Part shown: positions 23,744 to 48,020 of the stretch, one piece after another
Position numbering within the stretch: position 1 is the stretch's first letter
How the letters are laid out: every line of letters begins with the position of its first letter
Assembly: GCA_018340805.1 (NCBI GenBank)
Contig: JACMZG010001870.1
Location: 53,324,386 to 53,388,385 of the forward strand
Length of the DNA stretch: 64,000 nucleotides
Source of the DNA: Microvelia longipes
Taxonomy: Eukaryota > Arthropoda > Insecta > Hemiptera > Veliidae
Direction of reading: 5' to 3'
Position numbers and translations under genes: made by a program
The notes under the pieces: model-generated
What the model saw: only the letters and a program-made list of their open reading frames with translations
Told to the model about the DNA's origin: nothing
Database searches by the model: none

Positions 23744-23962
23744 TTACTTGTCACAAGAACATTCCACTATGGTGTAGGAATCCAGTACGTTCTGAATGGT
23801 TCTCTCCCATAGCCTGAGTAGGTTGTAGTAGTTGGATAGGAGTAAAGAGTGACGGGTGTCGCTTCGTTCCGTCGTTGACTTCAACTTGAGTGGAAACAGA
23901 GATCGAATTTCACGTCTCATGTGATCGTCTTCGAGAAGAGCTGACGAGATCTTGCACACCAT
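23744..23962 (-). CDS. Gene B exon 5: terminal exon with last helix
   Basis: Acceptor CCTGCAG, 72 codons and a TAA stop. It begins MVCKISSALL and ends with SNYYNLLRLWERTIQNVL and two cysteines. The Cys-3 and the Trp-centred helix align with LLCELDWTI and SYGMFIKDWHRIIRNL in the last exon of gene A. Composition is more GC-rich than the flanks, as expected for coding sequence. An AATAAA on this strand at 23650-23645 may be the poly(A) signal. Confidence 0.75.
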   Translation of the reverse strand: MVCKISSALLEDDHMRREIRSLFPLKLKSTTERSDTRHSLLLSNYYNLLRLWERTIQNVLDSYTIVECSCDK

Positions 23963-26900
23963 CTGCAGGAAAGTAATTTTCTTTAGTTACAGAGTTATAT
24001 TTAATGGAATTAATTATATATTTTTATTTCAACAAACGGACATGTTTTAAAGCCTGAAGATGGCCACAGAGTTGGCTGAAATATATAGCTACCATTAAGT
24101 GATACGCTGTTTTTTTATTGTGATATACAACTATAAGTCATTTTATTCTAGTTATTAAAAATGTGGAAGTTCTATAAGAGAAGTAGTGAAACCAAAGAGT
24201 TTTTGTAATATTTAAATGAGGATACAGTGAGAAAGAAATAACTTGTACTCATCAAAAACATATGAATATAAACAAAAGGAGTAAAGCACAGAGATAATAG
24301 TCCAAGAGCCCAGGGGTGTTTTGTTATTAAAAACTGTAATGGCTGGAACTGGTCTCAAATTTTCGTAAATATCTTCCTGAACAAGGATCTGCAATTCTGC
24401 CGACTCGTATCGGATGGGTGTCCCAGGCAGAACGCACTTTAGGGGTCAAAGGTTCTGCCTGGGACACCCATCCGATACGAATCGGCAGAATTGCAGATCC
24501 TTGTTCAGGAAGGTATTTACGAATAATTGAGACCGGTTCCAACCATTACACTTTTTATTAACAAAACACCCCTGGGCTCTTGGTCTATAATGTTATAAAT
24601 ATTGAAAAACAAATTAGTGTTAGTATACAAATAAATTGGATGTCTCCATAACGAAAATAATTATCAGATAATATATTCGATAACAATCAATTTATAACTG
24701 ATAACAATGATGCATTATTATTTAATAATAATTTTGTTTGATATTAAGAAAGAAATATTAATACTCACAATTTTAATAGATTCAGTTAGTTCTGAATTAA
24801 TTATTTTCCTATCAGCATTGGCATTTGATTGGTCGTCTAAATTAATTGTCAAAATTGTTGAAATTTCAAGTAATTCTTTGTACAATCTTACATTAGCGTC
24901 TGGTAGCTGTAACACGCAAGTGACACAAATTAATAATATATGCTGTTAGAAAAACTGAATGAAATCTTAATAAATCTGAATGTGAGATACAGAGATACTG
25001 GCATCAGGGGGGTGTCACACTATATAAAATCCCGGTTCCTTCGTGAACCGTATTCTAAGTAAAGTATTCTTTATTATGACTGGCATATAGGGAGATTGAG
25101 GGATACTGGCATATGTCGTGATTTCACAACGTGTCTCACTATGTCCAATTTTTCTAGGAGCTGAAAAAATAATATGATGCAGATGATCAGAGTGGTCTGA
25201 ACAATATAAGTACCAAATTTAAAAGACATTGAATGAAACTTTCGGCAATCATATGAGAAAGCATTAGATTTTATAGTGTGTGGCTCTAGAGCCTTCAACA
25301 AATAAACATAGGAGCTAAACGGAGAATATATAAGACAAGAGAGGTCTATAACAGAGAAAACTGTAAGATAAGATAATGAAAGTATCAATACTTACAGACT
25401 TGAGGGAATCAGCTTTACTTATTACTTCTTCAGTAAAGACACTGTGAGTAAATTCAAATGTATCTCCATCCAGAAACTGAAACATATTGCTCATATAAAA
25501 CAAACATAAAACTATTGATAATGAGAGTAAAGCGGCATACGGCATGGTTAGTAATGACCGAGGGGACTGAAGACATTCTCTCTGTGTTCAGTATCTGTTT
25601 TATTCGGTTTTACGGCAAATGGAGACGTAATAGTGTTCCTTAGTTAAAATAATAATATATTATGTTCTGCCTCATGGTCTTAAGAGTATAGCTAGTCATA
25701 CAGGGGGACACGTGTTGTTCCTAGTCCATGTGATAAGGTTTAGTCAGAAATCTTTTAGACTCGACAAAAATATGAGTACGGCGTCCTGAAGTATAGAACT
25801 CTATTTCAGGGATGTAAGAAGAATATCTCAACAGGTCATACCTCTCCATCACTAACTGCTTGGCTTTTAAACTGAGAATCGACCAGTTGGTCTGATCGGT
25901 GGTTCTGTGGTTAGTAAAAAGGAAGGAAAGGAGACAAGTCCCACTGGTAAGTAAGAAGGTTTCAACAATGTTGTCACCACAGATTCACGCCAACCAAAAG
26001 TTGATTAAAATGAGTTAAGTCCCTAAATTCCCGCCCATTATCTAGGGCAGGCATAGAGATATATAGTAGAGGGGGCATAACCTATCTCAATACATTAAGA
26101 GGCCTGAAACATCTTTTTTGGGGCTCTCAGGGGCTCTGTGTAACCTCATTAAAACCTCCTCCAAGAGTGAGTTATGGTTATAATAAATTAATTGTTTTCG
26201 GTTTCCGCTCATTCCTTGTATTTTGATTTGTATTTTTAACGCTCTACTGTATTATATACTGAAAGTTTGTACTGATTATTTAACTGCATTTATTAGCGAG
26301 GTGGTCAGGTTACTTTTTCAATGTTTCAAAATTTAACCTATAGGGCCTCTCTAGTAATATATCTCTATGAGGGCAGGAGTCTTGGTGAATTATGGTAACG
26401 CCTCTTAAATCCACCGTGGAATTAAAAATCAGACATGCAATCCATTTTCATCTTGTAAAAATGGATTTCGTAATGAGTGACGTAATTTGACCCACCAATT
26501 AAAAGACGAGCCCTAACTAACAGAATTGGGGAAGATTCGACAAAAAAAAAATAGTTTTTTGTTTACCCTCCCCTGAAAAGTAAATATACCCTACGTTATA
26601 TTTTTTAATTAATTTAAATCTAGTCTTTTTTAATAATATTTTTACAGTTAACCTGTAAATGTAAAGCTTGTTTTATTATATTCTGAAGATGACCACAATG
26701 ATATTTGAAATATATTAAGTACAAAGTAAAGTCTTTGTTTCATCTTGTAGAATAAAAGCCTAGTTAAGTCAGCAGTGGGTTAAAAATGAATTTCTAACAA
26801 AATTACTCCTGCCGATATGAAGAAGTTGTTAATATTCATATTATAGTAAAAATGGATATTTACCCTAAACTGAACATCTTTCATAAAACCAAGCTCTTTT

Positions 26901-47000: not shown

Positions 47001-48020
47001 CCAATTCTGGGAGTCAGACATAAATCCTTTTCAGAGGTCCCTGATTACATCAAAAGGGTTTTCGAGACTTGTGTCATTTAGACATAAGTTTCCGAATTGT
47101 TTAATAAATTTAGTTTTACAGTTATTTATAATACAATTGATGGGAGTTATACCTGATTACACTTATCTATCCTCTGAAGGGTGTTGTCAAAGTGTATGAG
47201 TGTTGTGTTCATCTGAGTACGGAGTCTTCTAAGTGGTTTAGGACTGGCTCTGTGTTTACCTGTAACTTGAATTTTACCAGTGCTGTTGCCATGCCTTTCC
47301 TTGCTGCCGTATCGTGACGGCTTCCACATCTAAACAAATACAAATACTTCTCATCTATCTGATTGAAACTCCCTTAACGCCACCTCAGATGTTTTTCCCC
47401 TAACCGCCCTACTTAGGAGTCCCTTCAGGTCTTTAAAATTAAAAATGTCTAAAGTAACGTTTTTAAGGGAACCACAAGCCTCTTTTAGGATTCCTGACAT
47501 GATAACGCTTTAGAAAACATCCTGTGTTTTATATAAGTAAAAAATCAACAATATTAAAGAATAGATATACTTAGAAATATGTTTCAGAACAATTTTATGA
47601 ACACATTAACTGAGTCTGAGCGAGACTTATACAATTAGGATAAAATAAATATAACTTAGTTTCTAGAAATTATTCCGATTTCAGAAAATGTTGAAATCAG
47701 ATCAGAAACTATTGGATAAGTAAGGAAACAAGAACACTGCTGAGGGTACAAGGCCCAGCTAGGTCATGGACTGAATGCATTACTGGAGCATAGTTAGGGA
47801 TGTTCATGCACACAAAAGAGGAACCAGGTGTTTAGGGAAATTGCTACATTATGACGAAGTTGTGAGATAAAATATAAAAAGAAGATGAGACTCACTTCTA
47901 ATGGAATTCTGCAGGGATTCTTCCAGGCAGGTGGAGGTTTCTTACGATGCCTGGGCTTAGCCAAACTCTCTGGCCTTAGCAGCAATATGAGCACCAACAC
48001 CACCCTCACCTGACTCCCTC
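37810..48020 (-). CDS. Gene A: putative secreted helical cytokine-like protein, 5' partial
   Basis: Exons in transcription order: 47896-48020, 47153-47329, 39680-39772, 38888-39043, 37810-38079. They encode 272 residues, plus an unplaced first exon. The first visible exon enters in phase 1; all later junctions are phase 0 with good GT-AG sites. In order: a hydrophobic signal core (VRVVLVLILLL, likely cleavage after ESLA), a basic Pro-rich stretch, NPCRIPLE, two potential N-glycosylation sites (NST, NTT), and helices ending in GMFIKDWHRIIRNLVGKK. The helical pattern with LLCELDWTIKQL and a late Trp-bearing helix recalls gp130-type cytokines such as G-CSF and CLCF1. Drosophila Unpaired proteins are the known insect JAK/STAT ligands and are predicted to be helical. 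Orthology to them is not shown. It is paralogous to gene B, same strand. Function is inference. Confidence 0.75.
38888..39043 (-). CDS. Gene A exon: central helices
   Basis: 52 codons, acceptor TTTACAG, donor CAG/GTAGTT. LLPRLHEGLQIYCACFERLR forms a long amphipathic helix. SPCTEYERTR and IFAELGNKLNQ continue into the next exon's LLCELDWTI. Confidence 0.78.
39680..39772 (-). CDS. Gene A exon: VRGFERGLDW segment
   Basis: 31 codons, acceptor CATCAG, donor AAG/GTGATT. Encodes GLDWLPENQLEWYKQEAKCL. Balanced codon composition against AT-rich flanks supports a coding exon. Confidence 0.78.
39826..39960. mobile_element. Penelope-like repeat remnant with terminal hairpin
   Basis: GAATCCGACGTCTTCCACTG and GATGTAGGACATCATGGATA are shared with the palindrome at 55530-55814. 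The right end is a short perfect hairpin (ACACAATGCTCTACAAAA and its complement). Located just upstream of gene A exon 39680-39772. Confidence 0.65.
40150..40380 (+). mobile_element. 5S-rRNA-derived SINE
   Basis: AAAGTTAAGCTCCATCGAGC and then GGATGGGTGACCGCTGAGAA copy the 3' half of 5S rRNA, including the C box. The tail holds GAGCGAGCAAAGCGAGTCCG and ACACCGTACCC, which also appear in the copy near 795-985. Confidence 0.8.
42022..42108. repeat. 21-bp tandem repeat, four copies
   Basis: Unit GTTACGCACGTCATATGCGTT is repeated almost perfectly. The unit is itself partly palindromic. Confidence 0.92.
43377..43630. repeat. Repeat with GAGGCGAAGCCGAGGG units
   Basis: It begins AATAGTTATTTATGC, like the elements at 33438 and 54181. 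Four degenerate units of CTGAGGCGAAGCCGAGGG are flanked by inverted arms (AATGTCATTATTCCC and GGGAATAATGGCATT). The minus-strand ORF here is repeat-derived. Confidence 0.75.
43721..45817. mobile_element. Non-autonomous hAT-like DNA transposon, 2.1 kb, in gene A intron
   Basis: The ends are inverted repeats, CATGGCGTAGCCAGGG at left and its near complement (CCCTGGCTACGCCCATG) at right. An 8-bp direct repeat CTCGTCGT flanks both sides (43713-43720 and 45818-45825), the target-site size of hAT elements. Inside are a duplicated block of about 185 bp (44380-44700), large inverted arms (about 44935-45130 against 45250-45470), and a (CA)n(TA)n tract. No transposase ORF. Confidence 0.82.
45603..45776. 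repeat. (CA)n followed by (TA)n microsatellite
   Basis: About 105 bp of CA and then about 65 bp of TA, inside the hAT-like element. ORFs on both strands are artefacts of the repeat. Confidence 0.95.
47153..47329 (-). CDS. Gene A exon: basic linker and first helix
   Basis: 59 codons, acceptor TGTTTAG, donor CAG/GTATAA. It is very basic (KERH, GKHRASPKPLRRLR), carries NST and NTT sequons, and ends in helix NTTLIHFDNTLQRIDKCNQ. Confidence 0.78.
47896..48020 (-). CDS. Gene A exon with signal-peptide core
   Basis: Acceptor TTGTGCAG and donor GAA/GTGAGT. There is no in-frame ATG: a stop codon lies just upstream of the acceptor, so the start codon must be in an earlier exon ending in phase 1. The signal core is followed by KPRHRKKPPPAW, a possible basic processing or heparin-binding stretch, and NPCRIPLE. 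Confidence 0.75.

Follow-up and report, generated by a model that had tools for sequence, protein, structure and literature searches.

We describe two exon chains on the minus strand of a 64,000-nucleotide stretch of the Microvelia longipes genome (Hemiptera, Veliidae; contig JACMZG010001870.1, positions 53,324,386 to 53,388,385; hereafter the window), to which we give about an even chance of being two tandem same-strand genes, A and B, each encoding a small, secreted, helical cytokine of the insect Unpaired / IL-6-like type. This reading rests on the signal-peptide-like exons of both genes, a layout in which a phase-1 intron is succeeded by phase-0 introns, a similar terminal helix followed by a cysteine, and the match of A to the profiles of Unpaired and IL11. 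A sequence-only reading of the window had proposed a paralogous pair of minus-strand cytokine-like genes at 23744-48020, and this original observation is largely real: both exon chains are present, with outer limits at 48020, where the signal-peptide exon of A starts, and at 23744, where the stop codon of B ends. Gene A (48020..37810, minus strand) has five exons that run from the signal peptide to the stop codon, and their sequence makes it a well supported gene model. Its exons are as follows (GC, guanine plus cytosine content; paired splice scores are acceptor / donor).

47896..48020, minus strand: gene A exon 1, an open frame that opens after a phase-1 intron and carries the signal peptide (VRVVLVLILLLRPESLA) and NPCRIPLE; acceptor 7.0 / donor 8.7 bits; GC 0.52.
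47153..47329, minus strand: gene A exon 2, with a basic stretch, two N-glycosylation sequons and the PLRRLR helix; splice scores 5.8 / 4.9 bits; GC 0.446; within the Unpaired match.
39680..39772, minus strand: gene A exon 3, the top internal exon score between A exons 2 and 5; required for the Unpaired match.
38888..39043, minus strand: gene A exon 4; splice scores 6.9 / 7.3 bits; required for the Unpaired and IL11 matches; codon score -6.8 bits.
37810..38079, minus strand: gene A exon 5, with the terminal amphipathic helix, cysteine and stop codon; acceptor 10.5 bits; GC 0.485; within the IL11 match.

When the spliced proteins were scanned against 24,736 Pfam families, A gave four matches in the first scan: Unpaired (expectation value, E, 0.0048), IL11 (E 0.011), SLATT_1 (0.18) and C2-set (0.19). 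The families that rank first and second are thus both helical cytokines, and as the cytokine reading had been proposed before any search, these ranks represent an independent test passed. The same proposal had set the pair apart from the Unpaired proteins, whereas A in fact points towards them. The Unpaired match takes in exons 2-5 (profile positions 43-168 of 273) and the IL11 match exons 4-5, so the proposed exon joins are spanned; without its signal peptide A scores 17.2 bits for Unpaired, which keeps its first rank. Neither family was matched by any of ten controls (nine within-exon shuffles and one reversal), for which the best E to anything was 0.16, and three permutations of the exon order matched no Pfam family at all. 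Omitting exon 3 removes the Unpaired match and omitting exon 4 removes both matches, while Unpaired scores of 11.9 and 17.1 bits are retained without exon 2 and without exon 5, respectively; a lengthened exon 3 also abolishes the Unpaired match. Together this makes the helical-cytokine reading of A, sharpened to Unpaired-like, fairly well supported.

Gene B (28404..23744, minus strand) extends from a candidate start exon to the stop codon. From their sequence both of its ends appear good and its middle doubtful, and exon 1b probably belongs to the gene:

28347..28404, minus strand: gene B candidate start exon 0, ending in phase 1; donor 7.1 bits.
26864..27099, minus strand: gene B exon 1, with the signal peptide, RSCGITLE and the LPRLKS helix; splice scores 6.8 / 6.4 bits; GC 0.436.
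25842..25904, minus strand: gene B candidate exon 1b, 21 residues, phase 0-0; acceptor 7.8 / donor 8.3 bits; codon score +9.6.
25396..25476, minus strand: gene B exon 2, less certain; splice scores 4.3 / 4.7 bits; GC 0.346, 65th percentile of background.
24769..24906, minus strand: gene B exon 3, least certain; splice scores 6.8 / 6.3 bits; GC 0.275, 30th percentile; codon score -21 bits.
23744..23962, minus strand: gene B exon 4, with the terminal amphipathic helix, cysteine and stop codon; acceptor 9.1 bits; GC 0.457.

Exon 1b (25904..25842) is the top internal exon candidate between B exons 1 and 4, and the two ATGs of exon 0 rank first and second among the start candidates listed for the 3 kb upstream; the phase in which exon 0 ends fits the signal-peptide exon. 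By inspection, a hydrophobic core and a plausible cleavage site are found in exon 1 of A and of B, in agreement with the signal peptides claimed at the outset. In both gene models the splice sites place a phase-1 intron ahead of the signal-peptide exon and phase-0 introns thereafter, so the earlier claim that all introns are phase 0 holds only downstream of that exon.

All nine exons (five of A and exons 1-4 of B) keep the reading frame open and have usable splice sites, and the chance that a regional stretch of the same length is open in one frame is 0.6% for A exon 5, 1.1% for B exon 1 and 1.6% for B exon 4. The GC of the A exons is 0.40-0.52, where the local mean is 0.30; relative to the surrounding background they stand at the 90th-100th percentile, and B exons 1 and 4 fall at the 98th and 99th percentile; in total 7/9 exons reach at least the 90th percentile. 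Codon scores, which derive from a small codon table built on the KDM3 exons of the same window, are positive for A exons 1, 2, 3 and 5, slightly negative for A exon 4, and about zero for B exons 1, 2 and 4.

The likeness between A and B was measured against 2000 shuffles, and in a 4 x 4 exon cross table with 500 shuffles per cell. Aligned over their whole length, mature A and mature B are more alike than their shuffles (z 2.55, p 0.011), as are the two last exons in a gapped alignment (z 3.07, p 0.0055); the best ungapped 20-residue match of the last exons pairs IITSYGMFIKDWHRIIRNLV with LLSNYYNLLRLWERTIQNVL (p 0.0035). The last-last cell also tops the cross table (3.26), the runner-up (2.11) lying off the diagonal. 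The features from which homology had been argued (NPCRIPLE with RSCGITLE, PLRRLR with LPRLKS, a cysteine at the third position of each last exon, and the terminal helices with their cysteine) are all present; the likeness of the last exons, like that of the whole alignment, is above chance, but the C-x-I-x-L-E likeness by itself (CRIPLE with CGITLE, p 0.17) and that of the other exon units are not. The terminal amphipathic helices, FIKDWHRIIRNL in A and LLRLWERTIQNV in B, are each followed by a cysteine and have the top hydrophobic moment of their protein (0.65 and 0.66). AlphaFold2, run on single-exon translations, gave a helix at 35-53 for the mature part of B exon 1 alone, with a predicted local distance difference test score (pLDDT) of ∼83 at its centre and a model mean of 66, and a helix at 39-65 for A exon 5 alone, with a pLDDT near 40. 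That A and B are paralogues is plausible from the last exon, the exon layout, the tandem order and the shared strand, but weak in sequence.

For B itself, a possible connection to Unpaired appeared in a hybrid protein. When the mature part of B exon 1 was joined to A exons 3-4, the hybrid scored 16.3 bits for Unpaired, and the match starts with the CGITLE cysteine at profile position 30. In A lacking exon 5 the match starts at residue 12, profile position 26; extended without gaps, the NPCRIPLE cysteine would also fall on position 30. Plain shuffles of B exon 1 in the hybrid gave an Unpaired match in 0/9 cases, and hybrids with the reversed B exon, the reversed A front or a B exon-4 segment gave none. 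Of shuffles that preserve the hydrophobic/polar class, 3/7 match Unpaired (13.0, 14.0 and 14.7 bits) and none reaches 16.3 bits, and insertion of exon 1b, which splice scores favour, removes the match from the hybrid. The apparent ability of B exon 1 to stand in for A exons 1-2 is weakened by the pattern shuffles and removed by exon 1b. The Unpaired match was also not kept when B exon 2 was put in place of A exon 3, or when A exon 4 was exchanged for B exon 3. Five B variants lacking at least one middle exon gave one match to CSF-1, a helical cytokine (E 0.057), and another to GH3 (E 0.0099), which we treated as noise. In sum, it is possible, but unproven, that B is a cytokine relative; the cytokine reading has fair support for A, whose two top Pfam matches are lost in controls, and is tentative for B.

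Searches for relatives of A returned little. The conservation that the sequence-only reading had put forward as a check was not borne out with gene A queries: spliced A and A exon 5 found no relative in the protein collection searched with these two queries. A KDM3 exon from the window, used as a control, had 153 matches in that collection (best 84% identical), so insect sequences are represented there; the lack of A relatives could be due to fast evolution or to exon-sized entries. Viral contigs held no relative of A exons 3-5, and searching solved structures by sequence gave no cytokine among the six matches of A (best E 0.02), nor was the single match of B (E 0.1) a cytokine. The Unpaired profile run exon by exon over the whole genome gave 0 matches, an uninformative result since control genomes were silent too.

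Within the 664.6 Mb assembly, a search with spliced A recovers the five exons of the gene, a partial tail copy just past the stop codon (E 0.06) and, elsewhere, one match of E 2.75. Spliced B recovers its own exons, 1b among them, and four matches of E 1.39 or worse at other places. At this search sensitivity, A and B each appear to be single-copy. The partial copy (37710-37766, minus strand) repeats the last 19 codons of A right past its stop codon with 79% protein identity, indicating that the C-terminal tail of A is in part tandemly duplicated. The same genome contains two STAT exons and one JAK FERM_F2 exon, all above the Pfam cut-offs. Neither the 1 kb ahead of B exon 0 nor the 1 kb ahead of A exon 1 contains a STAT- or kappaB-like site; two STAT-like sites lie in the first intron of B and one AP-1-like site upstream of A.

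Several results weigh against two tandem cytokine genes. The remaining 3/4 corresponding exon units of A and B are alike only at chance level (z -1.10, 0.16 and 1.31), and the moments of the terminal helices lie just ∼1 and ∼2 standard deviations above the best of shuffles (0.57 and 0.53). B by itself matches no Pfam family, whether exon 1b is included or left out, and its exons 2 and 3 sit at background GC, so that its middle looks non-coding. A minority possibility that we take seriously is that A is an Unpaired-like cytokine and B something unrelated or mis-assembled, either a small secreted protein of a different kind or a mix of exons of more than one origin, with a likeness to A that is one of helix pattern only. 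The missing Pfam match and the background GC of exons 2 and 3 would suit it, as would the fact that pattern shuffles can mimic the match of the exon 1 hybrid and that exon 1b abolishes it. However, none of those shuffles equals the hybrid's own score, the last exons are alike in both the gapped and the ungapped comparison, and A and B stand in tandem on one strand with a common phase layout and a signal-peptide exon.

The profile scores of A must be weighed as well, as both lie under the Pfam curated cut-offs (16.9 against 27 bits for Unpaired and 15.7 against 25.8 bits for IL11), for which reason we call A Unpaired-like and do not file it as a member of Unpaired (PF15972). In addition, among the numerous constructs scanned later, a few reached E values of ∼0.01 for unrelated families (C2-set 0.0086 and 0.011, GH3 0.0099). 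If A and B were secreted helical proteins of a non-cytokine kind, the Unpaired and IL11 scores would reflect amphipathic helix composition, in keeping with their sub-threshold level, with the lack of sequence relatives of A in the collection searched and with the 13.0-14.7 bits that helix-pattern shuffles of one exon attain when fused to A exons 3-4. We consider this improbable, as two cytokine families hold ranks 1 and 2 of 24,736 and both matches are lost in composition-preserving shuffles and exon permutations. It is very improbable, in our estimate, that one or both chains are non-functional, whether as decayed copies or as chance open frames. No convincing candidate for the start-codon exon of A was found within the window upstream of 48 kb, a donor-like site of 12.5 bits at 48010 inside A exon 1 is stronger than the donor used (8.7 bits), and the partial tail copy and the middle exons of B point the same way; against this stand nine in-frame open exons with usable splice sites, the rarity of equally long open stretches, and the elevated GC of most of the exons.

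Returning to two tandem cytokine genes, A can be compared with two known families. The Unpaired proteins of Drosophila (Upd1-3) are secreted and basic, carry N-glycosylation sequons and are encoded by clustered paralogues. Unpaired is the top Pfam match of A, and mature A has a net charge of +21 and two N-glycosylation sequons; it differs in the shortfall of its score, and B alone has no match. IL-6 and G-CSF have intron phases 1-0-0-0, and the phase-1-then-0 introns of both genes, together with IL11 as the second match of A, resemble this vertebrate family. A departs from it by one extra intron, between the signal peptide and the first helix, and by its sub-threshold score; should exon 1b prove real, B too would carry an additional phase-0 intron. 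If the pair are such cytokines, mature A and mature B would both fold as four-helix bundles. A, being strongly basic with two sequons, would be secreted and retained close to the matrix or the cell surface; family knowledge suggests that it would bind the gp130-like receptor Domeless and so activate JAK and STAT. B, which has a net charge of -4 (without exon 1b) and no N-glycosylation sequons, might be a more diffusible second ligand of the same or another cytokine receptor.

Other features of the window surround the two genes. Long tandem arrays lie on both sides of gene A, at 35168-36060 and 48402-49086; one consists of ∼8 repeats of a 114-base unit and the other of ∼12 repeats of a 57-base unit. 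Upstream of gene A, a frame at 63686-63943 (plus strand) contains a MADF DNA-binding domain above the Pfam cut-off and, by eye, probably extends into L002:865-1566. A KDM3 (JHDM2-type) histone demethylase gene has exons at 5394-17723 (plus strand); the JmjC domain is above the Pfam cut-off in the frame 16255-16551, and the exon at 9121-9831 finds KDM3 relatives, the few named ones including those from Ephemera danica and Timema bartmani (insects), a tick and a lizard. In the KDM3 tree the sequence of the window is firmly joined to one relative only. At 58218-59342 (plus strand) an open frame has sub-threshold Pfam matches to two families of tyrosine recombinases, Phage_int_SAM_4 (E 2.7e-5) and Phage_integrase (E 2.8e-4), and may belong to a Crypton-like transposon; the open frames at 61227-61739 and 62391-62966 are similar to it by eye, the latter without a Pfam match. 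The window contains no Rfam family and, with the tRNA scan on its bacterial setting, no tRNA. There is no perfect (TTAGG)6 or (TCAGG)6 in the whole assembly, where contig ends may be incomplete or other telomeres may be used; the contig ends looked at show no clear telomere repeat, and the telomerase family gave 0 matches in the assembly, in a search without a working control.

The literature already has a non-fly gene called unpaired, in the cockroach Periplaneta americana, where its knockdown is reported to disrupt leg regeneration (PMC12864434); we liken this gene to A by name only. The 2006 survey of honey bee immune genes describes Unpaired as the sole pathway member completely absent and proposes a 'currently unrecognized ligand' (PMC1847501), and work on the pea aphid (PMC2872881), soft scales (PMC11084805), triatomines (PMC5778769), Varroa (PMC12027997) and the locust (PMC4624584) likewise reports none, the last of these suggesting that Unpaired may be Drosophila-specific. 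According to PMC5385356, Upd2 homologues are annotated in 12 Drosophila species only and Domeless homologues in 48 invertebrates. A stink bug 'upd' is expanded as uroporphyrinogen decarboxylase within its own paper (PMC7071726), and we take it to be a name mix-up; the accessible parts of PMC5126049, PMC13409945, PMC3502128 and PMC11597413 hold nothing on Unpaired sequences outside Drosophila. A cytokine inferred in locust haemolymph, which activates a class I cytokine receptor, was unidentified in 2021, and CRLF3 was then an orphan receptor (PMC8063046). CRLF3 is a conceivable receptor for B, nothing in the present data tying A or B to it.

Although unlikely, the window may hold a JAK/STAT ligand locus, possibly a non-fly one with an IL-6-type gene structure, in which a matrix-bound A serves Domeless and a diffusible, highly diverged cytokine B is perhaps the missing ligand of another class I receptor such as CRLF3. 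Several surveys of non-fly arthropods did not find Unpaired. An exon-level locus that has both a profile match and a neighbouring tandem gene provides a direct experimental target, and it can also be used to look for orthologues that may escape plain sequence searches. If the ligand-locus reading is true, it would link Unpaired to the vertebrate IL-6-family genes through their gene architecture.

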